Source: an uncultured Clostridia bacterium (GTDB lineage: Bacteria; Bacillota; Clostridia; Christensenellales; CALWSW01). From it: a stretch of DNA of 15,047 bases. The position numbers were made by a program, and so were the translations under genes. Numbering within the stretch: the first letter of the stretch is position 1; each line of letters starts with the position of its first letter. The DNA lies in assembly GCA_937874755.1 (NCBI GenBank), contig CALNBC010000145.1, positions 1 through 15,047 on the forward strand, in the 5' to 3' direction. A model generated the notes under the pieces. That model was not told the origin of the DNA and did no database searches. It was given only the letters and a program-made list of their open reading frames with translations. Below are positions 355 through 15,047 of the stretch, piece after piece.

Positions 355-864
355 TTACCTTATAACGGTGAACTTGCCTATCACCGGAAGCGGTTTCATC
401 TGACCACTTGCGGCATTTACTATTCCGATTATGCAAAGTGCTACAACTACAAGCCAAGTAAGTCCAAATATGGTCGTGAGCACACTCCACAGACCCCATG
501 AGCCCGAGTTGAGCAATATAGAAGCAAGTATCGAAGTGATAATCCAATACACCACGCCGTATGCCAGCGAAGCAATAAACAGCACCGTTCCCTGGTTGGT
601 GTGATATTTTACGAAAGGCGACGTGTTGTGAGCGCCTGTGATAAGCGGTATGAAAAAGATAATGTAGGCCAATATTGCCATCGTTTTATTGGCCTGAGCG
701 TCTGCTTCGTTAGTCTGAGTTCTAACGGGCTGCTGGTATGTCGGTCGATACTCATTTTGGGCATTGGATGCGCTTGTGGTGTTCGCATCGAGCACTTGCC
801 CGCACGACGGACAGAACTTTACTCCGTCCTTGACCTGTTCCCCACATTTCCCACAGTATGCCAT
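355..864 (-). CDS. Zinc-ribbon protein with DUF4870-like membrane domain
   Basis: A 169-residue protein. The N terminus is a classic zinc ribbon (C4-x2-C7 and C18-x2-C21). A polar Ser/Gln/Asn/Thr-rich linker follows (about 25-60), then three hydrophobic segments at about 62-77, 94-118 and 125-152. The loop KYHTNQGTVLF (86-96) resembles the FHxxQ-type signature of DUF4870/Tic20-like small membrane proteins. The ribbon would face the cytoplasm and probably mediates protein contact rather than catalysis. The start is an ATG with a strong GAGGAGG site about eight bases upstream. It is the last gene of the cysteine-rich cluster but has its own promoter candidate (914-937), so it may be transcribed separately. 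The molecular function is unknown. Confidence 0.85.
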   Translation of the reverse strand: MAYCGKCGEQVKDGVKFCPSCGQVLDANTTSASNAQNEYRPTYQQPVRTQTNEADAQANKTMAILAYIIFFIPLITGAHNTSPFVKYHTNQGTVLFIASLAYGVVYWIITSILASILLNSGSWGLWSVLTTIFGLTWLVVVALCIIGIVNAASGQMKPLPVIGKFTVIR

Positions 865-2252: not shown

Positions 2253-3011
2253 TTAATCGAGTTTGGTTCCGCAACCTCCGCAGAACTTGGTACCAGGAGG
2301 GTTGTCTTCCCCACATCCAGGACATTTGCTGTCGGATTTTTTGGCATTCATAGGGTTTCCGCAGTTGTTGCAGAAGCGAACCCCCTGGGCGTTTTTGGCT
2401 CCGCAGCTTGCGCATGTGCTCAACTCAAGAGAAGCGCCGCAGTTGTTACAAAATTTGCCGTTTCCTGCAGGCTTACCGCAAGCAGGGCAGGTGGTAGTCT
2501 TGCTCTCGATCTTCCCTTTCCACACTGTTGCAGTCTCTCCAGCCTCTTCAATGTTGCGCCTCATGGCATCGGCGCGCGCCTTTGCGACATATACTTCCTG
2601 CCTAGGCGCACATTCGTCGCACAAGCCTTCGTCATCATTGTAGCAAACATCACAAACATAATGATGGCAGGAATGGCAACGGTGAAAGTGCTGCTGTGAT
2701 TCGTTCTGTGACTGCTCGAATGCCTTTTCATGTTCTTTTTGCCATTCTGGGCTCATCTCCTCAAACCGTTCAGAAAGTATGCTCCCGCCGCGTTCAGCGG
2801 CGTAACCCAAGCTGGACAGCCGTCCGCCCAAAAAACTACCTAGAAGCCCTGCTCCGGCGGATATGCCGCGCAACCCTTTCTTCTTCTTATAGGTTTCCGA
2901 TTCGATAAAGCTGGATTTATATCCGTCCTGGCAATTGTCGCAGTAAAAGGTAAATTGGAAACCGGCTTCAGTGGAATTGTCCTCATAATTCCTGGTGAAT
3001 GACTTGAGCAT
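2253..3011 (-). CDS. Multi-zinc protein: treble-cysteine domain plus three zinc ribbons
   Basis: A 252-residue cysteine-rich protein. Residues 24-27 form an isolated C-x2-C knuckle. A Gly-rich, partly hydrophobic stretch follows (about 47-72), then a charged helix (about 82-108). Next is a dense metal site with C112, C115, C120, C123, C131 and C134 in the pattern HFxRCxxC...VCDxCYN...CxxCAPR. A second helix leads to three consecutive zinc ribbons (C175/C178-C188/C191, C200/C203-C214/C217, C230/C233-C244/C247). The 24-27 knuckle and the 108-137 domain recur as almost the whole of the small protein encoded at 3856-4131. The start is an ATG preceded by GGGGGAGG at eight bases. It is likely a cytoplasmic scaffold or adaptor. 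No catalytic motif is visible and the function is unknown. Confidence 0.8.
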   Translation of the reverse strand: MLKSFTRNYEDNSTEAGFQFTFYCDNCQDGYKSSFIESETYKKKKGLRGISAGAGLLGSFLGGRLSSLGYAAERGGSILSERFEEMSPEWQKEHEKAFEQSQNESQQHFHRCHSCHHYVCDVCYNDDEGLCDECAPRQEVYVAKARADAMRRNIEEAGETATVWKGKIESKTTTCPACGKPAGNGKFCNNCGASLELSTCASCGAKNAQGVRFCNNCGNPMNAKKSDSKCPGCGEDNPPGTKFCGGCGTKLD

Positions 3012-3028: not shown

Positions 3029-3364
3029 CTATCGCTGATTTGTTAGCTTTTTCCCGCAGGCGGTGCACTTCGTGTTCTCGAAGAACTGTAGTTCGCCGCA
3101 ACGCCTGTTGCCGCACTTTATCATCAATCCCGCGCCGCACTGCTCGCAGCGCTCATCCACAAAGGTTCGACCCAAGCACGAGGGACAAACTACATACAGT
3201 GAACGACCGCACCCTGCGCAAACCACTTCATCCTTTTCGATGGAGCGAAGGCAGGTCGGGCATAGATACCCGAAGGGACTTCTGCTCGCGCATTTTGGAC
3301 ACAACCGCGAGTCCCTGTCGATGAATTCCCCGCAATGCAAGCAGGGTTGTTTGTATGTCGCCAT
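3029..3364 (-). CDS. Four-zinc-ribbon protein
   Basis: A 111-residue protein made almost entirely of zinc ribbons: C8/C11 with C22/C25, C35/C38 with C49/C52, C60/C63 with C73/C76, and C84/C89 with C100/C103. All sixteen cysteines pair into four sites. The last site has a four-residue gap in its first knuckle. The sequences between the knuckles are short, so there is no room for an enzymatic domain. The ATG follows a GGGGGG-type ribosome site and lies only three bases past the upstream gene's stop, showing tight operon coupling. The gene downstream starts 17 bases after its end. It resembles double zinc-ribbon proteins found in many Bacillota. A protein-binding role is likely but not shown. 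Confidence 0.8.
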   Translation of the reverse strand: MATYKQPCLHCGEFIDRDSRLCPKCASRSPFGYLCPTCLRSIEKDEVVCAGCGRSLYVVCPSCLGRTFVDERCEQCGAGLMIKCGNRRCGELQFFENTKCTACGKKLTNQR

Positions 3365-3367
3365 GAA

Positions 3368-3841
3368 TTATCCCCCCTGTTTCGTTCCGCATTCACCGCA
3401 AAAACGTGTTCCCGATTCAAGCTCTGCACCGCAATTACTGCAGTGCGGCTTTGCCACTGCTCCCAGTTTGGTTCCGCATTCCTGGCAGAATTTTGTGCCT
3501 TCAGGGTTCTGATAATCGCAATTCGGGCATCTGCTCTGAGCTTCTATTGCTGCCTTTGCGGCTTCATCTGCTTTCTTTTCTTCGTCCATACCCGCTATTT
3601 TCTTCTTGATGGACTCTATATTGCTCCTGATTAGCTGAAGCTTCTCGTATTGGGAGTATGTTGAAGGGTCACGCTCATACGCCTGCCGCCCTATTTCGGC
3701 AAAAAGTTCGGTTTCCTGCTTTTCGAGGTCGGATAGCTCGGTTTGTGCATTGATCATGATTACGTCTGGGTCATCTTGGGGCATAAAGCCCGAAAGTCCT
3801 TTCATAAAATCGCCAAGTCCGTTGAATAAATTGTTTGCCAT
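3368..3841 (-). CDS. Coiled-coil protein with two C-terminal zinc ribbons
   Basis: 157 residues. The N-terminal 30 are mixed Gly/Phe/Met-rich, which could be an amphipathic membrane-contact segment. Residues about 30-103 are predicted here by eye to be a long charged coiled coil (heptad-like Leu/Ile spacing, with runs of Glu, Lys and Ala). Two zinc ribbons follow at C105/C108-C119/C122 and C134/C137-C148/C151. The ATG follows GGGGAGAAA. The gene is 14 bases downstream of the small treble-cysteine gene and three bases upstream of the four-ribbon gene. The arrangement suits a multimerising scaffold that displays zinc ribbons. No enzyme motif is seen. Confidence 0.75.
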   Translation of the reverse strand: MANNLFNGLGDFMKGLSGFMPQDDPDVIMINAQTELSDLEKQETELFAEIGRQAYERDPSTYSQYEKLQLIRSNIESIKKKIAGMDEEKKADEAAKAAIEAQSRCPNCDYQNPEGTKFCQECGTKLGAVAKPHCSNCGAELESGTRFCGECGTKQGG

Positions 3842-3855
3842 TTGTGTTTCTCCCC

Positions 3856-4131
3856 TTAGTTGTTATTTCCGACGCGTGGCGCGCAGTCTTCGCATACCAT
3901 CTCGTCCTCATTGTAATGCCAGTCGCAAACCCACCTTTTGCACTGATAACAGCGGTTGAAATGGTTTCTGCCTTCGTTTGCTGCGAGTTTGAATGCCTCG
4001 TCAGCCGAGGCGGCGCTAATCCTGCCTGTAACAAAAGTGTTTTCACATATCCCGCAACAAAACTTGAAGCGGAAGTAGCCGTCCTCGCTCGTCATTATAT
4101 ATTTGGCTGTAAATTCGGGTATTATGGGCAT
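3856..4131 (-). CDS. Small treble-cysteine protein, stand-alone version of the domain in the 2253-3011 gene
   Basis: 91 residues, first gene of the minus-strand cluster. Residues 22-29 read FKFCCGIC, a metal knuckle like FTFYCDNC in the larger protein. Residues 58-86 carry HFNRCYQC, VCDWHYN and CEDCAPR (C61, C64, C69, H72, C80, C83), closely matching HFHRCHSC, VCDVCYN and CDECAPR of the larger one. H72 replaces a cysteine of the larger protein and could still bind zinc. The ATG has a GAGG site six bases upstream and a promoter candidate at about 45-65 bases. The two proteins are clearly paralogous in this region, and this one lacks the ribbon tail. Function unknown. Confidence 0.75.
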   Translation of the reverse strand: MPIIPEFTAKYIMTSEDGYFRFKFCCGICENTFVTGRISAASADEAFKLAANEGRNHFNRCYQCKRWVCDWHYNEDEMVCEDCAPRVGNNN

Positions 4132-4204: not shown

Positions 4205-4307
4205 TTGCCTGCATATATTCCAACATTTTGAAAAATAAGCTATTATAAACTAGATGGGTAATTATGGCGTTTCTTAATATCAGCATAGTATTGTGCAGCA
4301 CGAAAGT

Positions 4308-4389
4308 AATCACCCCGAAAGGGTGATTTTGGAAAGAATTCTGCATTTGCGGGTGTTTTTTAGGGTGATTTTGCAGATTGGACGATACT
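4308..4389 (+). promoter_or_regulatory. Hairpin, repeated GGGTG(A/T)TTTT boxes and weak -10 upstream of the lipoprotein gene
   Basis: AATCACCC (4308-4315) and GGGTGATT (4321-4328) form an 8-bp inverted repeat with a five-base loop, followed by TT. The box GGGTGATTTT at 4321 recurs as GGGTGTTTTT at 4351 and GGGTGATTTT at 4363. A weak -10-like GATACT lies at 4384-4389 and has no -35 box, so the boxes at 4351 and 4363 would sit where an activator binds. I infer a binding site for the regulator encoded two genes downstream. The hairpin alone could also be a weak terminator. Confidence 0.4.
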
Positions 4390-4419: not shown

Positions 4420-5781
4420 ATGAAAAAGCAAATCCCGTTAGTAACATTTCTCTGTATACTGTCATTTGCCCTATTGGGGTGCAATAATTTTTCGTACGGA
4501 CTTGACCCCGGCGAGCCTGTAACGATTACGATGTGGCACAATTACGGGGGTCAAATGAAGGACACGATGGACGAACTCATCACCGAGTTCAACAACACCG
4601 TCGGAGCGGAAAGCGGCATAACCATAAACGTTACCTCCATTCAGTCATCGAAGGACCAGAACGATAAATTAGCCATGATAGCTTCTGGCGACCCAGGAGC
4701 CCCCGAAATGCCCGACATTGCCACGGCTTACCCTTCTATGGCGCTTACTTTGTCCGAGGCCGACCTTCTGGCTTCGCTTGACGAGCACTTTACCAAACAG
4801 GAGTTATCCTCTTATATCGAGCAATTCGTCGAAGAAGGCAGGCTAAGTGATGGGAAGCTATATGTGTTTCCAGTCTCCAAATCAACCGAAGCACTTTTCG
4901 TGAACAAGACACTCTTCGATCGTTTTTCCGAAGCGACAGGCACTACGCTTGACAGCCTTTCCACCTTCGAGGGAATTGCTCGTGCTGCCGAAAAATACTA
5001 CGAGTGGACAGACTCCATTACCCCCAGCATTACTAACGATGGGAAAACTTTTTTTACGGCCGATTCCTGGTTCAACATAGCTCAGGCAGGAACAGCGCAA
5101 CTTGGTAGCGAATTTGTAGAAATGGACAGCTTAAACATGGATTCTTCAAGCTATAAAAGGATTTGGGATTTTTCGGTACTGCCTGCGCTAAATGGCGCTT
5201 ATGCTGTTATGGACGGCTATTCCTCCGAACTTTCCAAAACAGGTGAAATAATCTGCTCTATCGGTTCCACAGCGGGGATACTCTTTTACGGCGATACTAT
5301 TATCTATCCCGATAACACAAAGGAAAGTGTAGAGTTCGACGTATTACCTTATCCCGTTTTCGAAGGCGGAGAGAAAGTAGCACTCCAGCGCGGCGCGGGT
5401 ATGGTCGTTGCAAAATCCACTGCGCAAAAGGAATATGCAGCTTCAGTTTTTTTGAAATGGTTTACCAGCCCCGAACAGAATATGCGATTTGTATCGTCCA
5501 CAGGCTATTTGCCCGTCACCAAAGAAGCATTTGAACAGAAAATGTCTGAAGAGATTGAGTCTATAGAGAACCCATCTGTCAAGAAACTGCTGGAAACCGC
5601 AACATTTATGTATGAGAATTACTCCTTCATAATCGCTCCTAATGCAGAGAATTTCTCGTCGCTTTCCGGCGATTACGAAAGTGGCATAAAGCAGGTTATG
5701 CGTGACGGGCGACAAAAGGTGTTGGACGGTGGCGACGTAGGCTTTATCGGGAATGAACTTTACGACACCTTTCTACATTGA
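4420..5781 (+). CDS. Extracellular solute-binding lipoprotein (family 1 type)
   Basis: 453 residues from the ATG at 4420, chosen because GGAGGA (4408-4413) sits six bases upstream and a lipoprotein signal follows at once: KK, a hydrophobic core and lipobox LLGC with C21 as the lipidated residue. The mature part begins like family 1 ABC solute-binding proteins (VTITMWHNYGG). Later it has SKSTEALFVNKTLFD and near the C terminus FLKWFTSP and TGYLPVTKEAFE, all typical of the CUT1/glycerol-phosphate/maltose class. It should be anchored outside the cytoplasmic membrane and bind a small solute such as a sugar or polyol. There is no permease or ATPase gene next to it. Instead a membrane LuxR-type regulator starts 39 bases downstream, so a sensing role is more likely than transport. 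The ligand cannot be read from the sequence. Confidence 0.88.
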   Translation: MKKQIPLVTFLCILSFALLGCNNFSYGLDPGEPVTITMWHNYGGQMKDTMDELITEFNNTVGAESGITINVTSIQSSKDQNDKLAMIASGDPGAPEMPDIATAYPSMALTLSEADLLASLDEHFTKQELSSYIEQFVEEGRLSDGKLYVFPVSKSTEALFVNKTLFDRFSEATGTTLDSLSTFEGIARAAEKYYEWTDSITPSITNDGKTFFTADSWFNIAQAGTAQLGSEFVEMDSLNMDSSSYKRIWDFSVLPALNGAYAVMDGYSSELSKTGEIICSIGSTAGILFYGDTIIYPDNTKESVEFDVLPYPVFEGGEKVALQRGAGMVVAKSTAQKEYAASVFLKWFTSPEQNMRFVSSTGYLPVTKEAFEQKMSEEIESIENPSVKKLLETATFMYENYSFIIAPNAENFSSLSGDYESGIKQVMRDGRQKVLDGGDVGFIGNELYDTFLH

Positions 5782-5820
5782 TTGGCAAGAACTAGGGAAA
5801 ACGGTAAGAAGGTTGAGACA

Positions 5821-7467
5821 ATGATACAGCGTAATGGCATACCGGAAACGTTGACAAAAGAAGTATTCTTAGGCAGACAAGGCTTTTCGCTGCAACTACG
5901 CCTTTTTACGTTCTTCATCGTCTTTATTGCGGCTATCATGCTTACACTGTTGCTGATACTGTCTTTAACGGGAGTTTTTTCCTTCGGGCTTACTGAAAGT
6001 AGGATTTACCTAGAAAACGAACTTAACCACATTTCTGAAAGCGTTCAAAACGGTTATGGAACTCTTTCTTTGGAAGGGGTTTCTTTATCCGAAAAAATAT
6101 CTTACAAAATTGAAGCAGAATTGAAGGAATACAGACTATCCCCTTCCGCGCTTAAAGAGAATTCCAACCTTATTGAGCCTGTTTTGCGCAGTTGCCTCGA
6201 CACTTTACTCGCTGCTTTGGAGAAAAATGCCGCTAGCGCCGTTTTCGCAGTACTTGATACAACCGTAAATCCAAACCTTAGCGGCTCAGAAAACTCACGC
6301 GCCGGGCTGTTCATGCGAAATATGGAACCCAACGCGATCAACCGCACAAACCCCTCCATTCAATACATGAGGGGTCCTATCTCTATTGCTAGAGAGCGCG
6401 GAATACGGGTGCTCCCACAATGGGAGATGGAATTCACAGTTCAGCCTGGGGACTTTTTTTATACAACTATAGATGGCGCAAAACAAAACGACGCTCTTTC
6501 CCGACTATACTATTGGAGCGCTAAGGCTGTGCTCGAGGGCGATTACGAAGAGGCCATGCTTCTTTGCGTTCCATTGATAGCGTCTGACAATACGGTGCTT
6601 GGGGTCTGTGGTTTTGAAGTGAATTCCATGCTGTTCAAATTAAAAAATACTCCTTATAATATAAAATCCAAAAGGTATTTTTCTATACTCTGCCCTATTA
6701 GCGACGGCACGTTGGACACTTCTAGAGCACTGTTTGCTGGCAATTTCGATAAAGATGCCTTCACAGAGGGAAGTGCGCTCACGATACAGCCACAAAGCGG
6801 CGATATTGCCACCTTTGTATCCTCCGACGGATCGCGATTTTCCGGCTTGTATAGGGAAATTGCACTTTATCCGAAGGACTCTGCGAACAGCGGCGAACTA
6901 TGGGCGGTAGCCGTAATGCTACCAGAGATAGAGCTTAACGAATACGTGCTGAGCCGAAATATCCCAATGCTCCTATTGCTTGTGTTTCTTCTCGTATTGA
7001 GCATTGGCTCGGCTTCTTTTATCAGCCGTCGCTACCTTGCGCCTGTTCTCCGGAGCATCGATAACATCAAGGCGCAAGGGCTTTCTGAGTATATCAAGAC
7101 CAACATCCGCGAAATAGACGACCTTTTCGCCTTTCTCGCGGAAAAGGATGCCGCAAACAGCGACAAAAAACCTGCTCAGAGCGCATCCGAAACAGACAGT
7201 GTTGCGCCGAACGCTGATGCGAGCGCCATAGTACTCGAGTTTTCCCAGAAGCTAGAAACACTGTCCCGCGCGGAACGGGCGGTGTTCAACCTGTATGTAC
7301 AGGGTTACGATGCCCAGGAGATTGCAAAACTTCTCTGCCTTTCCATAAACACAATTAAGACGCATAACAAGCGCATCTATTACAAGCTCGGCGTTAACTC
7401 GCGAAAGGAACTCATGGGATACCTTCGCAAAATGCGGGAAAAAGGGTACGACGTGCCTATAGAATAG
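5821..7467 (+). CDS. Membrane-anchored sensor with cytoplasmic LuxR-type HTH
   Basis: 548 residues from the ATG at 5821, with AGAAGG eight bases upstream. A TTG at 5782 is in frame but has no ribosome site. TM1 spans about 28-52. A large extracytoplasmic region (about 53-378) has the size and position of a double-Cache sensor, although I see no diagnostic motif. TM2 is at about 383-401. A short HAMP-like linker follows (about 402-442, with PVLRSIDNI and EIDDLFAFLAEKD), then an Ala/Ser-rich tether. The C-terminal LuxR/GerE helix-turn-helix (about 478-540) contains LSRAERAVFNLYVQGY, EIAKLLCLS and NTIKTHNKRIYYKLGV. There is no kinase, receiver or cyclase domain, so it would be a one-component regulator acting from the membrane. 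Co-transcription with the lipoprotein gene suggests that the loaded lipoprotein is its input. Confidence 0.85.
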   Translation: MIQRNGIPETLTKEVFLGRQGFSLQLRLFTFFIVFIAAIMLTLLLILSLTGVFSFGLTESRIYLENELNHISESVQNGYGTLSLEGVSLSEKISYKIEAELKEYRLSPSALKENSNLIEPVLRSCLDTLLAALEKNAASAVFAVLDTTVNPNLSGSENSRAGLFMRNMEPNAINRTNPSIQYMRGPISIARERGIRVLPQWEMEFTVQPGDFFYTTIDGAKQNDALSRLYYWSAKAVLEGDYEEAMLLCVPLIASDNTVLGVCGFEVNSMLFKLKNTPYNIKSKRYFSILCPISDGTLDTSRALFAGNFDKDAFTEGSALTIQPQSGDIATFVSSDGSRFSGLYREIALYPKDSANSGELWAVAVMLPEIELNEYVLSRNIPMLLLLVFLLVLSIGSASFISRRYLAPVLRSIDNIKAQGLSEYIKTNIREIDDLFAFLAEKDAANSDKKPAQSASETDSVAPNADASAIVLEFSQKLETLSRAERAVFNLYVQGYDAQEIAKLLCLSINTIKTHNKRIYYKLGVNSRKELMGYLRKMREKGYDVPIE

Positions 7468-11028: not shown

Positions 11029-12747
11029 TTACTCAGCGTCTTCCGCCCTCCAACCGATTACAGCGAATTTGCCGTCGGTGTGCTCATCAACCTTGTTAAT
11101 CCATTCTATCTCATTGCTAGCTTTTGCTGCAAGCATGCGGTTGTTCGTGTCTGTACGATATAAGGAAGCGTTTATAATCCACCACTTTGCATTAATTCCA
11201 GCGCGTTGCAAGTCTTCTTCAAGGCGCTTAGCTTCATATACGGGAGTCGCTTCCGCCAGAGTGACGATTATGACCTCAGTCTCGTCTGTGTTGCGCAGCC
11301 TAGGCAGCAGCTTTTTCACCGCTTCGGGGATTTCGCCGCCCTGAGTGCGCTGCACCTCTTTGTGATAACTCTGAGTCGAATCCAAAAGGAGTAGCGTGTG
11401 CCCTGTAGGCGCGGTATCGATGACGACCGTCTCGCTCTCTGCCTTTTCGACTATTTGTGTGAAAGCCCTGAATACGGCGATTTCCTGAGTGCAGGGAGAG
11501 CGCAAATCCTCTTCTATATAAGCAATGTCGTCCTCGGACATGGTTTCCCGCGCCTTTGAGAGAACTTCTTCCTGGTACTTCCTAAGCTCCGCCTCTTCGT
11601 CTATACGGCTCATTCCAATGCCGCTAGACTCGCCTATCGCAAAATTCGCGTTACCGGCAGGGTCGGTGGTGGCAAGATGCACTTTTGCGCCTTTGGCGGA
11701 TAGCCCAAGGGCAATAGCAGCGGCGACGGAGGTTTTACCTACTCCACCCTTCCCCATAGTAAAGATGACCTTCTTTTTGGATTTGTACAAGTCATCTATA
11801 ACGTCCTGAAGCTGCAGAATAGTTTGCGCCCGAACTTTTTCGTCCTGTAGCACATAATCGTCCGACGTGAGCAGCGCGCGCACGTTTTCTATACCGGTAA
11901 CATTATAAGCCCTAAAGGGAATCTGGTATGTCTTCAGCCCCTTAAGCTCTTCTGGCATTGCGTCAAGTGCATTTTGCTGTTTCTCAAAGAATGACTTTGA
12001 AACAGCGTCATCATAGTCCGCCAGCATGCCGTTGATTATAAATGCCTGGTTGTTCACACCTATATCCGCAAGCTCCAGTGACGCTCGAGCAGCTTCTTTG
12101 AGGGGCGCTTCTTCGGGGCGCGAAACTAGTACGAGTGTTGTCAGCTCACCGTCCGAAAGGGTTTCGACGGCGCCTTTGTAAACTTGCTTCTTGCTTTCCA
12201 GACCAGAGAGCTGACCCAAGCAGGATGCACCGTGCGTATTTTCGCTTATGAAGTTGCTCCAGGCAGAAGGCAGTTGCAGCATGCGCAGAGTATGGCCGGT
12301 AGGTGCTGTGTCGAAAATAATGTGATCGTACTCCTCTTGGACATCCTCGTCGGTAATGAAGTGCGAGAACTCGTTGAAAGCGGCTATTTCGACGGTGCAG
12401 GAACCGGAAAGCTGTTCTTCCATGTTATTTAGTACCGCTTCGGGCAGCTTGCCGCGATAGGGCGAAAGTACGCTTTCCCTGTATTCGGCGGCAGACTGCA
12501 TAGGGTCAAGATTAGCGACGACGAGGTTCGGCACTTCTTTGATGGCTGTATTTTTATTTGTGAGTTCTATGCCGAAAACATCCTGCAAGTTCGAGGCGGG
12601 ATCTGTGCTTACCAAAAGCACCTTTTTTCCGTTATCTGCAAGGCTGACAGCTGTGGCGCAGGCTGCCGACGTCTTGCCTACTCCACCTTTGCCTGTGAAA
12701 AATAGGTATTTCGTAAGCCTTACGGCTTGTGGGTTGAAATGTTCCAA
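11029..12747 (-). CDS. arsA: Arsenite/antimonite-stimulated ATPase ArsA, double-domain form
   Basis: 572 residues from a TTG (12747-12745) with GGAGGAC seven bases upstream. ArsA is the cytoplasmic ATPase that powers arsenite efflux through a membrane pump. Two homologous halves are seen. Each has a P-loop, GKGGVGKTS at 19-27 and 332-340, and a DTAPTGHTL signal motif at about 146-154 and 444-452. The three metalloid-binding cysteines of the family have clear counterparts: C117 (in SGSCTVEIA), C176 (in GASCLGQLSG) and C419 (in RSPCTQEIA). Length and layout are complete. It is the last gene of the operon, 48 bases after arsD. No arsB or acr3 pump gene is visible, so its membrane partner must lie elsewhere. 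Confidence 0.95.
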   Translation of the reverse strand: MEHFNPQAVRLTKYLFFTGKGGVGKTSAACATAVSLADNGKKVLLVSTDPASNLQDVFGIELTNKNTAIKEVPNLVVANLDPMQSAAEYRESVLSPYRGKLPEAVLNNMEEQLSGSCTVEIAAFNEFSHFITDEDVQEEYDHIIFDTAPTGHTLRMLQLPSAWSNFISENTHGASCLGQLSGLESKKQVYKGAVETLSDGELTTLVLVSRPEEAPLKEAARASLELADIGVNNQAFIINGMLADYDDAVSKSFFEKQQNALDAMPEELKGLKTYQIPFRAYNVTGIENVRALLTSDDYVLQDEKVRAQTILQLQDVIDDLYKSKKKVIFTMGKGGVGKTSVAAAIALGLSAKGAKVHLATTDPAGNANFAIGESSGIGMSRIDEEAELRKYQEEVLSKARETMSEDDIAYIEEDLRSPCTQEIAVFRAFTQIVEKAESETVVIDTAPTGHTLLLLDSTQSYHKEVQRTQGGEIPEAVKKLLPRLRNTDETEVIIVTLAEATPVYEAKRLEEDLQRAGINAKWWIINASLYRTDTNNRMLAAKASNEIEWINKVDEHTDGKFAVIGWRAEDAE

Positions 12748-12795
12748 TATTAAGTCCTCCGAATTATAAGATGCCGATGTTGTTTGTGACCATGT

Positions 12796-13188
12796 TCAGC
12801 AGCAGTTACCCCCAGAACAATTGCAACCGCCTGATTTTTTAACGTTGAACCTCATGGCTTTCGGCTTGGCACTGATGTAATTCACTGGAATGTTGAATAG
12901 CTTCGACAACTCATCGTTAGTGGGGTATCTTCCCTTTATCCAGATTTCGCCGTCGATCACCGTAATCGGCAGACCTTCTACTCCGGAAGAGTTGATAAAT
13001 TCGTTGGCTGTCTTGTTGGTTACAAACTCTTGCGGAGCGCTGTTAAGATTATAACGTTCTATCACAATGCCTCTATTTTTTAGGTTGTTGACAACTGTAG
13101 ATATCCTGAGAAGCTCGGGGTCAACTCCGACTCCGCAAAGCCCGGTTGGGCAGCACATGGCAGGTTCATAGATAGCTATTTTTTTCAT
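12796..13188 (-). CDS. arsD: Arsenic metallochaperone ArsD
   Basis: 130 residues from the ATG at 13188, chosen because AAGGAG (13203-13198) lies nine bases upstream and MKKIAIYEPAMCCPTGLCG is the standard ArsD start. A longer frame to 13263 adds 25 unconserved residues. ArsD receives trivalent arsenic or antimony and passes it to ArsA. Seen: C12, C13 and C18, the conserved metal triad, then a thioredoxin-like body with LPITVIDGEIWIKGRYP (about 75-91). The C-terminal tail has C122-x-C124 and the pair C129-C130, comparable with the extra vicinal cysteines of plasmid R773 ArsD. The gene lies between arsR and arsA, as expected. Confidence 0.94.
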   Translation of the reverse strand: MKKIAIYEPAMCCPTGLCGVGVDPELLRISTVVNNLKNRGIVIERYNLNSAPQEFVTNKTANEFINSSGVEGLPITVIDGEIWIKGRYPTNDELSKLFNIPVNYISAKPKAMRFNVKKSGGCNCSGGNCC

Positions 13189-13289
13189 AGATAGAATCTC
13201 CTTAATATATTTATTGTCAACCTTGGGCTGTTTAAGCGATGTTGCATGCCGAAAATCAGGCATTCGGTGCTTATTTGCCTGCGCTCTTA

Positions 13290-13637
13290 TCAGTGCGGTT
13301 TACCCTTACTGATGCACAATTCCTGTGGTTTATGTCCACTTTTTTCTTTGATGTCCTCATTATACGTAGGCAGGTTCTTCAATCGGCTTACAAGATACTC
13401 CCATAGTTCCTTGTTTTCTTGAATAAAAGTGCTGCTTATTTTGTAATAAGTCCATTGTGCGATCTTATTGCTTTCTAGTATTCCGCACTTTTTCAAAGCG
13501 GACAGGTGCCGCGAGGTATTGGACTGCGTCAGGTTTAGGGATGCTTCTATTTCGCAGACGCACAACTCTCCCTGAAGCAGTAGCGATAATATGCGCAGCC
13601 TGCTTTCCTCAGACAATGCCTTGAAAATCTCGACCAT
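13290..13637 (-). CDS. arsR: ArsR-family metalloregulatory repressor
   Basis: 115 residues forming a winged helix-turn-helix: an N-terminal helix (FKALSEESRLRILSLL), recognition region LTQSNTSRHLSALKKCGIL (about 36-54) and a wing near KIAQWTYYKI. The metal-sensing motif ELCVCEI, with C26 and C28 at the start of the DNA-binding helix, matches the arsenite-binding ELCVCDL of ArsR proteins. ArsR represses its own operon until As(III) or Sb(III) binds. The ATG follows a GAGGTGGAG ribosome site. The promoter and a palindromic operator are found about 140-190 bases upstream. It is the first gene of arsR-arsD-arsA, 101 bases before arsD. Confidence 0.93.
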   Translation of the reverse strand: MVEIFKALSEESRLRILSLLLQGELCVCEIEASLNLTQSNTSRHLSALKKCGILESNKIAQWTYYKISSTFIQENKELWEYLVSRLKNLPTYNEDIKEKSGHKPQELCISKGKPH

Positions 13638-13655
13638 AGCTCCACCTCTCTCATG

Positions 13656-13707
13656 CGCTCATAGGAATACGCTCATATAATATGCTTTTGCTCAGCCATT
13701 GTTACAA
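13656..13707 (-). promoter_or_regulatory. Possible second ars promoter with direct repeats
   Basis: On the minus strand TTGTAA (13707-13702), a 19-base spacer and TATTAT (13682-13677), then TATGAGCG twice (13677-13670 and 13663-13656), 14 bases apart. The TATGAGC word is also in the main operator. The long spacer makes this promoter uncertain. The repeats may be a secondary ArsR site. Confidence 0.35.
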
Positions 13708-13770
13708 GGCGTTTGAGGTCGAACATTCGCGTCGAATGTACAATACCGCTTATGTATCCATGTAGTCTTA

Positions 13771-13834
13771 ATGAGCATATGAGCATTTACTCATATTGTA
13801 CGCATTCAAAAACCATTTGTCAATGGCTTTTGAA
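13771..13834 (-). promoter_or_regulatory. ars promoter and ArsR operator, overlapping an upstream terminator hairpin
   Basis: On the minus strand TTGACA (13823-13818), exactly 17 bases, and TACAAT (13800-13795): a near-consensus promoter. Overlapping the -10 and the likely start point is a palindrome, ATATGAG (13777-13783), six bases, CTCATAT (13790-13796), the expected form for an ArsR/SmtB-family operator. ATGAGCAT also occurs twice in tandem (13771, 13779). The -35 box overlaps the loop and one arm of a hairpin (13805-13817 with 13822-13834, one mismatch, T-rich on the minus strand) that probably terminates the oxidoreductase transcript. Confidence 0.75.
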
Positions 13835-13842
13835 AATCTTGT

Positions 13843-15047
13843 TTATTTTTTATTGTGGGTTTTGCTGTACTGAGTGTACCCACCCGAGAGATTAAACACC
13901 TGTGAAAAGCCTTTGTTGATAAGTATATTCTGCACTGCGTTCCCAGTGATGCCCTTGTTGCAGTAGGCGACGATTGCGGTTTCTTTATCCAGTATATCCG
14001 CAACGTTCCTAAGCTTCTCCTGGGAGATACTCTCGGCGGTATTGATATGGTTCTTGTTGTACTGCGCAGTTACCCGTGAATCGATCAATTTGTATGGCTC
14101 TCCTGATTGCATAAGCGAGTCCAATTCTTGTGCCGTTATGAGCTGCCTACCTTTTTGAATTGCATTATGTAGTATCATGCCGGTGTACATCACCGGATCT
14201 TTGGTCGTCGAGAACGGCGGAGCGTAACCCAAATCAAGGTGGAACAGGTCTTCTACATTCGCCTTAAAGGTTATGGCGGTTACAAACACGTCCAGCCTTT
14301 TGTCGACCCCGTCCTCCCCTACTATTTGGACTCCCAGCAGCCTGCCGCTATTTTTATCCGCTATGCCCTTTATTATCATTTCCTTGCCATTCATGTATTC
14401 TGGCTTGCTGGGCTTAATGTTGTGGCAGATTGCTACATCGTAGCCCTGCTCCTTGGCTTCGCGCTCAGAAAGCCCCGTCTGTCCTACGGCTAAATCGAAC
14501 ACCTTGAATATTCCGGTACCTAGAACACCCTTGAATTCCAAATCACCGCCCGTTACACAGTCGCCGGCGATTCTGCCTGTTTTATTGGCGGTGGAGCCCA
14601 ACGGACGGTAGACTGGCTTTCCTGTGATAACATGGAAATGCTCGATGCAGTCCCCGCAGGCATATATATCAGGTATGTTGGTCTCCATCCTTGAGTTGAC
14701 CTTGATTGCGCCTGCAACGCCTAATTCTATTCCGGCGGCAGCGGCCAGCTCGGTATTGGGGCGTACACCTGTAGAGAGCACCACAATTTCGGCTTTTATC
14801 TCTTCGCCATCCTCTAGCAATACCAAATCTTTTGTAATCTCCACGACAGAAGCCCCAGTCAATACAGTCACGCCGTTCTTTTTAATGTGCTCCTCAACAT
14901 GAACTGCCATATCGCTATCCAATCCTGGAGTGACTTGTGGCAGTCTTTCCAACAGTGTTACTTCGATGCCTAGATTTTTAAGGTTTTCGCAGACCTCGAG
15001 ACCTATAAACCCCGTGCCTACGATAGCCGCAGTGTGGGGATGATTAT
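13843..15047 (-). CDS. Pyridine nucleotide-disulfide oxidoreductase with C-terminal rhodanese domain (5' partial)
   Basis: 400 codons are visible and the frame is open to the window edge. An internal TTG at 14952 is not the start, because the NAD(P)H-binding motif IVGTGFIGLE lies upstream of it. About 150 N-terminal residues, with the FAD-binding fold and the redox cysteine, are missing. Seen in order: the NAD(P)H domain, STGVRPN, the second FAD motif IYACGDC, the dimerisation domain with YAPPFSTTKDPV typical of CoA-disulfide reductases, and a rhodanese domain (last about 100 residues) with putative active cysteine in CNKGITG. The usual arginine of the rhodanese loop appears to be absent. The family includes CoA-disulfide reductases and NADH oxidase/polysulfide reductases. 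Next to ars genes it may supply thiol or sulfur redox chemistry. Confidence 0.88.
   Translation of the reverse strand, partial: NHPHTAAIVGTGFIGLEVCENLKNLGIEVTLLERLPQVTPGLDSDMAVHVEEHIKKNGVTVLTGASVVEITKDLVLLEDGEEIKAEIVVLSTGVRPNTELAAAAGIELGVAGAIKVNSRMETNIPDIYACGDCIEHFHVITGKPVYRPLGSTANKTGRIAGDCVTGGDLEFKGVLGTGIFKVFDLAVGQTGLSEREAKEQGYDVAICHNIKPSKPEYMNGKEMIIKGIADKNSGRLLGVQIVGEDGVDKRLDVFVTAITFKANVEDLFHLDLGYAPPFSTTKDPVMYTGMILHNAIQKGRQLITAQELDSLMQSGEPYKLIDSRVTAQYNKNHINTAESISQEKLRNVADILDKETAIVAYCNKGITGNAVQNILINKGFSQVFNLSGGYTQYSKTHNKK

Follow-up and report, generated by a model that had tools for sequence, protein, structure and literature searches.

A gene for a solute-binding lipoprotein (SBP) is followed directly by a gene for a membrane protein with a LuxR-type helix-turn-helix (HTH) in a 15,047-nucleotide stretch of DNA from an uncultured Clostridia bacterium (hereafter, the window). 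The first-pass annotation of this DNA noted the pair and saw no transporter gene, and both points were borne out: coordinates and Pfam confirmed the order SBP, 39 nt, regulator, and there was no transporter among the 9 + 3 proteins of the window scanned with Pfam. To which protein, then, does the SBP present its ligand, and which genes does the regulator control?

The two genes and their conservation

The SBP (453 aa ORF) matched PF13416 (E 1.1e-33) and PF01547 (E 1.4e-12), and a lipobox-like LLGC was read in its sequence at residues 17-20. Its nearest structures were dinucleotide, cyclic maltosyl-maltose, UgpB and MalE-type binders. At 11-21% identity these are too distant to name one ligand.

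The ORF of the regulator opens at 5782, and the likely start is the ATG at 5821 (residue 14), 39 nt beyond the SBP stop; the database form is 548 aa long. An AlphaFold2 model placed one helix at about residues 37-62 and a long helix starting at 382 (numbering of the joint model minus 454). The model and a fold search identified a dCache fold between the two helices, as the first-pass annotation had guessed for the outer region, and the sensor domain is extracytoplasmic, lying between transmembrane (TM) helices as in a receptor. The closest folds were ligand-bound chemoreceptor domains. The GerE domain scored 45.9 bits against a curated cut-off of 23.5 in Pfam, which places the protein among LuxR/GerE HTH proteins. 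The helices, the outer domain and the HTH of the proposed TM-outer region-TM-HAMP-like-LuxR architecture were therefore confirmed, whereas no HAMP domain matched in Pfam at E <= 0.1. What was found C-terminal to TM2 was a conserved stretch, KTxIxEIDDLxxFL, and "HAMP-like" is our reading of it. Residues 458-477, between the TM2 region and the HTH, formed a low-confidence linker (pLDDT < 50).

A joint AlphaFold2 model of the SBP and the regulator (pTM 0.74; 70 rows, 18 read through) suggests a defined arrangement of the two proteins, although the chain link may bias it. A fold search with this joint model had only SBP rows among the matches listed and has no bearing on the interface. Coordinates are collected in Table 1. 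Elsewhere in the window lies an arsenic-type gene set (11029-14952, minus strand), in which a small regulator resembling ArsR and a double ATPase resembling ArsA were recognized by reading.

Table 1. Features of the window.
Feature	Position	Strand	Remarks
Zinc-ribbon + DUF4870-like membrane protein	355..864	-	PF13240 E 2.7e-8; DUF4870 E 0.0018, below its cut-off
Zinc-ribbon protein ZR252	2253..3011	-	PF13240 E 8.8e-13; third operon gene in L223, L224
Double zinc-ribbon protein ZR111	3029..3364	-	PF12773 E 5.1e-10; second operon gene in L223, L224
Zinc-ribbon protein ZR157	3368..3841	-	PF13240 E 4.2e-15; relatives follow operators in L223, L224, L246
Divergent ZR91 gene, CxxC-rich small protein	3856..4131	-	predicted first target; relatives follow operators in L240, L248
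Possible -10 box TATGCT	4282..4287	-	4/6, weak; at conserved offset
Candidate operator palindrome AATCACCC-N5-GGGTGATT	4308..4328	.	0 mismatches; relatives mostly N3
Degenerate direct half-site GGGTGTTT	4351..4358	+	12 nt before next half-site, as in relatives
Direct half-site GGGTGATT	4363..4370	+	exact match
Solute-binding lipoprotein (SBP)	4420..5781	+	proposed ligand-binding subunit
TM-dCache-TM-HAMP-like-LuxR(GerE) regulator	5821..7467	+	"HAMP-like" by reading
dCache sensor domain	5959..6969	+	regulator residues 60-396
GerE/LuxR helix-turn-helix	7258..7416	+	residues 493-545; PF00196 E 4.3e-12
ArsD	12796-13263	-	PF06953 E 6.4e-44
Disulphide reductase with rhodanese domain	13843-14952	-	Pfam

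To examine whether the two genes belong together, we considered the loci of related regulators. A protein search yielded 173 relatives at E <= 0.001, the best 120 of which were listed. A scan of species genomes (tblastn, E <= 1e-3) gave 367 places, with patterns in the HTH, so that some may share the HTH alone; the 80 places that match most of the regulator were kept and, with L003 from the same order, made up 81 loci. The SBP lay directly upstream of the regulator in 75 of these 81, the adjacency expected of SBP-dependent receptors, and the conserved pairing on which the first-pass annotation had staked its reading was thus found. Five of the six exceptions were contig ends, which fell just 113-523 nt before the match; the sixth, L093, truly has no SBP and its regulator is intact.

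The sensor was present in 44 of 391 genomes of the class, and 40 stretches were taken for 50 sensor rows. In 35 of the 40 the SBP was directly upstream (28 of 32 without the 8 that repeat the DNA of earlier loci, which means that the class sample is not independent). Three exceptions were contig ends (L139, L159 and L166), and L165 and L171 were without an SBP. At E <= 1e-20 no SBP was found in G340, G373 (83% complete) or the genome of L093. The regulator frame was broken in L165 and L171, two of the three cases without an SBP, as if the genes were mutually dependent; assembly errors are possible. A simple ORF caller placed a divergent gene upstream in 50 of 61 loci and a convergent gene downstream in 42 of 60. 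Records titled Treponema or Spirochaetaceae (L031, L036 and L037) also contained close relatives of the pair, through inter-phylum transfer or as misbinned contigs.

No importer permease was among the neighbour families listed (the best 25 of 35 for 61 upstream neighbours and the best 25 of 85 for 60 downstream neighbours), in agreement with the earlier expectation that ABC permeases would not recur beside the SBP, and an importer role for the SBP was considered less likely on this basis. Queries for permeases and ABC ATPases matched at 12 of 82 loci, a count that overstates permeases because the query set included ABC ATPases. One locus (L057) has an ABC transporter gene directly upstream, and the source genome has 13 BPD_transp_1 places outside the window.

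The same SBP and sensor were also found with GGDEF-EAL or GGDEF outputs and, at one locus each, with a hybrid kinase (L147) and with GGDEF + kinase + receiver (L142). In trees of 45 pairs, from which those whose SBP was short or absent were excluded, the HTH type formed one side of a branch (sensor, 100/99; SBP, 100/98). The SBP and the sensor thus travel together while the output varies, and this is the main argument that the SBP is a subunit of the receptor, as it appears to be.

A candidate operator and its promoter geometry

We enumerated dyads and words upstream of the SBP in 64 loci, those in which the SBP was complete and was preceded by more than 150 nt. The word AATCACCC was present in 51 of the 64 upstream regions, compared with 11 for the commonest 8-mer of one shuffle. 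The palindrome AATCACCC-N3-GGGTGATT (<= 3 mismatches) was detected at 51 of the 64 SBPs when the 300 nt before the SBP ORF and its first 60 nt were scanned; base shuffles gave 0.2 per 64. Among the loci that carry it are those of the cultivable Petroclostridium sp. X23 (L086, 1 mismatch) and Yanshouia hominis (L050, 2 mismatches). Further, it is often accompanied by two direct GGGTGATT half-sites, at about +34 and +46 and 12 nt apart; the half-site layout was analysed in 48 of 49 sites, near-copies having been removed.

The palindrome was found at none of the 13 GGDEF-type pairs, nor at the kinase pair, and was present at 8 of a second set of 19 HTH pairs. Among the HTH pairs unused in motif discovery, only 4 of 13 had it near the SBP (L157, L158, L162 and L164). 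The six most divergent HTH pairs were without it, and three that were compared differ in the recognition helix: NTLKFHN (L134), NTLKYHN (L170) and NTLRFHN (L150) versus NTIKTHN. These three should possess operators of their own. Two further misses have the site elsewhere, in L156 inside an over-extended ORF start and in L163 downstream of the regulator, ahead of a small CxxC-rich gene.

Genomes carried one to six copies (23 genomes, mostly picked for a known site), and the reversed control occurred in one. In the class sample, 18 of the 20 genomes that have a close regulator contained the palindrome, versus 12 of the 371 others (Fisher 3e-21), where "close" means E <= 2.1e-117, a cut set post hoc, and some of the 20 also fed motif discovery; the count was 18 of 32 when every HTH-type genome of the sample was included. 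The motif tracks the HTH type and not the SBP-sensor. In L258, a site with one mismatch (at about 2028) precedes a DUF6591-like lipoprotein gene, with a -10 box of only 4/6; no regulator was detected in that genome.

Of the 49 sites beside SBP genes, 36 distinct ones have a -10 box with at least 5/6 matches on the divergent strand, starting at -26 (29 sites) or -27 (7 sites); on the SBP strand no position was shared by more than 5 of the 49. If transcription starts about 7 nt past the -10 box, a start that we infer, the palindrome would be centred near -42, the class II position. The lux box sits at -42.5. Sites in 33 further stretches showed the same layout: 30 of 34 (L245, L247 and L248 excluded) had a -10 box at the same offset and an ORF of at least 80 aa starting 29-219 nt beyond. 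Without the pair's own promoter regions (L216 and L220) the count was 28 of 32; several of these sites are orthologous in related genomes and are therefore not independent events. In genomes without the regulator the layout was present at only 1 of 14 sites. A conserved operator in an activator-like geometry fits direct action on these promoters.

Genes downstream of the candidate operator

A ZR157-ZR111-ZR252-DUF4870-like operon follows the operator in L223 and L224. Elsewhere the operator is followed by ZR157 (L246), a ZR91-like gene (L240), AIM24 (L225), a DUF4870-like gene (L216), an AraC-type regulator (a Pfam match in L208, with similar genes in L209 and L244) or a 1312-aa exported protein (L215); the targets in L221 and L222 fall outside any theme. 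A simple pattern detected a lipobox-like motif in 13 of 30 operator-linked genes, and many of the products are thus lipoproteins. Within 5 kb on the divergent side of 60 pair loci, 33 had zinc-ribbon, DUF4870-like, DUF6591-like or AIM24 genes, 12 had a BTAD regulator instead, and 15 had neither, although in one of the 15 (L057) the zinc-ribbon operon follows the regulator. L022, L023, L024, L027 and L028 have a BTAD/TPR regulator on the divergent side of the pair, with a CsgG-like gene and a membrane protein beyond. In that subgroup the target may therefore itself be a regulator.

No N3 palindrome with <= 3 mismatches was found within the window, and we therefore sought the N5 form. The best N3 site in the source genome had 2 mismatches (C263), and the reversed control gave one site at <= 3. 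The N5 palindrome upstream of the SBP gene is the genome's sole N5 site with < 3 mismatches; in a shuffle test, 6 of 200 shuffles reached <= 3 mismatches. A consensus promoter scan performed at chance level and missed the TATGCT box. Because the N5 spacing is unusual and the -10 box weak, the case for the window copy is weaker than that for the family. A terminator-like hairpin was called at 4340-4353, overlapping the half-site region, and another half-site, at 1022-1029, is intragenic and could be a chance match.

The first-pass annotation had suggested the nearby dhaLK operon as a target. This candidate was dropped: of 60 loci, only that of the window itself has dhaK/L, and there was no exact half-site near the dhaLK promoter. 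The predicted target is instead the divergent zinc-ribbon run from 4131 down to 355, whose first product, ZR91, had no Pfam match. Relatives of this run of small minus-strand genes travel with AIM24, DUF4870-like and DUF6591-like genes.

Proposed mechanism and alternatives

We propose, with a probability of about 0.7, that the pair is a one-component transmembrane signalling system whose ligand-binding subunit is a separate protein, and that it acts as a class II activator of a few small operons. Outside the membrane, the SBP would bind a small molecule and dock on the dCache domain; to judge by the fold class of the SBP, the ligand may be a sugar, a nucleotide or a glycerol-phosphate compound. 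The change would pass via TM2 and the HAMP-like linker and switch the LuxR-type HTH. Still membrane-anchored, the HTH would bind AATCACCC-N3-GGGTGATT with its tandem half-sites and would act as a class II activator where the promoter -35 region overlaps the palindrome. The targets would be a few small operons of zinc-ribbon, DUF4870-like, AIM24 and lipoprotein genes, in the window the divergent run.

Alternatively, the dCache domain may itself bind the signal, the SBP being an accessory that raises sensitivity or feeds an importer encoded elsewhere. dCache domains often bind ligands directly, as their closest folds here do, the regulator of L093 is intact without an SBP, and the BPD_transp_1 places elsewhere in the genome could serve an importer. 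However, an accessory role sits poorly with near-fixed adjacency across three output kinds, and a feeding role with the lack of a recurrent permease among the listed neighbour families; we regard this explanation as unlikely. Membrane-held regulators can also act via regulated proteolysis, and the low-confidence linker between the TM2 region and the HTH could be where a soluble HTH part is released. Yet neither a protease site nor a linked protease was seen, and the stretch after TM2 is conserved, as expected for a linker that passes a signal, so that release from the membrane appears quite improbable.

The regulator might instead repress at the same operator, since the palindrome overlaps the -35 region and binding could block polymerase. 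The predicted centre near -42, the further half-sites upstream and the poor -35 are activator-like, although the start is itself predicted, and repression seems a poor prospect, on a par with proteolysis. That the motif serves some other, unlinked regulator or forms an RNA hairpin, its place beside the pair being accidental, is very unlikely. The palindrome can fold as a hairpin, one resembling a terminator was called in the window, and 12 of the 371 genomes that lack a close regulator carry the site; against this, regularly spaced direct half-sites suit protein-DNA contact, the motif goes with the HTH type rather than with the SBP-sensor, and sites in genomes without the regulator mostly do not have the promoter layout. 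We thus retain the membrane-tethered activator with its SBP subunit as the preferred reading.

Several known systems come close to this arrangement. In NspS-MbaA, a periplasmic polyamine-binding SBP signals through a membrane c-di-GMP receptor, and the window pair has GGDEF-EAL cousins; the output there is c-di-GMP turnover, in contrast to a DNA-binding domain in the same protein here. XylFII-LytS is a clostridial SBP-kinase pair, but has a two-component output. CadC/ToxR-type proteins are membrane-integrated one-component transcription activators; unlike the window regulator, they have an N-terminal winged helix and one TM helix, and they are not known to have an SBP lipoprotein. In CuaD-CuaS-CuaR of Ruminiclostridium cellulolyticum, an acylated SBP binds the outer part of an adjacently encoded sensor, but this sensor is a histidine kinase with a separate response regulator and controls the importer of the same sugar (PMC10384115). 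Membrane LuxR-type proteins are less unusual than the first-pass annotation stated, although its basic observation stands: DadR, HcdR and CadR of Eggerthella lenta carry a C-terminal LuxR-type HTH on a membrane protein and activate transcription, and they have an N-terminal domain of 10-12 TM helices, no dCache and, in the accessible part of that paper, no mention of an SBP partner (PMC9734109). The window regulator has only two long membrane-type helices. A 2022 survey of SBP-activated receptors, in the portion available, names chemoreceptors, sensor kinases, c-di-GMP enzymes and Ser/Thr kinases, and a membrane-anchored transcription factor is absent from that list (PMC9602780); SBP-type domains inside c-di-GMP proteins are treated in another paper (PMC8846402). 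Our literature search, which reached few subscription papers, found no description of an SBP-dCache-LuxR system.

We consider it fairly probable that these loci represent a widespread, so far undescribed class, in which the dCache domain receives the ligand from a lipoprotein SBP and directly controls a LuxR-type activator tethered to the membrane; this activator would have a palindromic operator of its own and a small envelope/zinc-ribbon regulon. As part of this whole-class reading, the HTH-type pairs are rather likely to be related to SBP-dCache-GGDEF/EAL receptors via output-domain exchange. If this is true, the pair would be a new receptor class, in which a single protein connects an extracellular binding protein with a promoter, and it would occur in many Bacillota, most of them uncultured. 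Further, a candidate operator and regulator would be assigned to zinc-ribbon, DUF4870-like, AIM24 and lipoprotein genes that are conserved but have no known role, so that these genes, and the signal too, could be put to the test.
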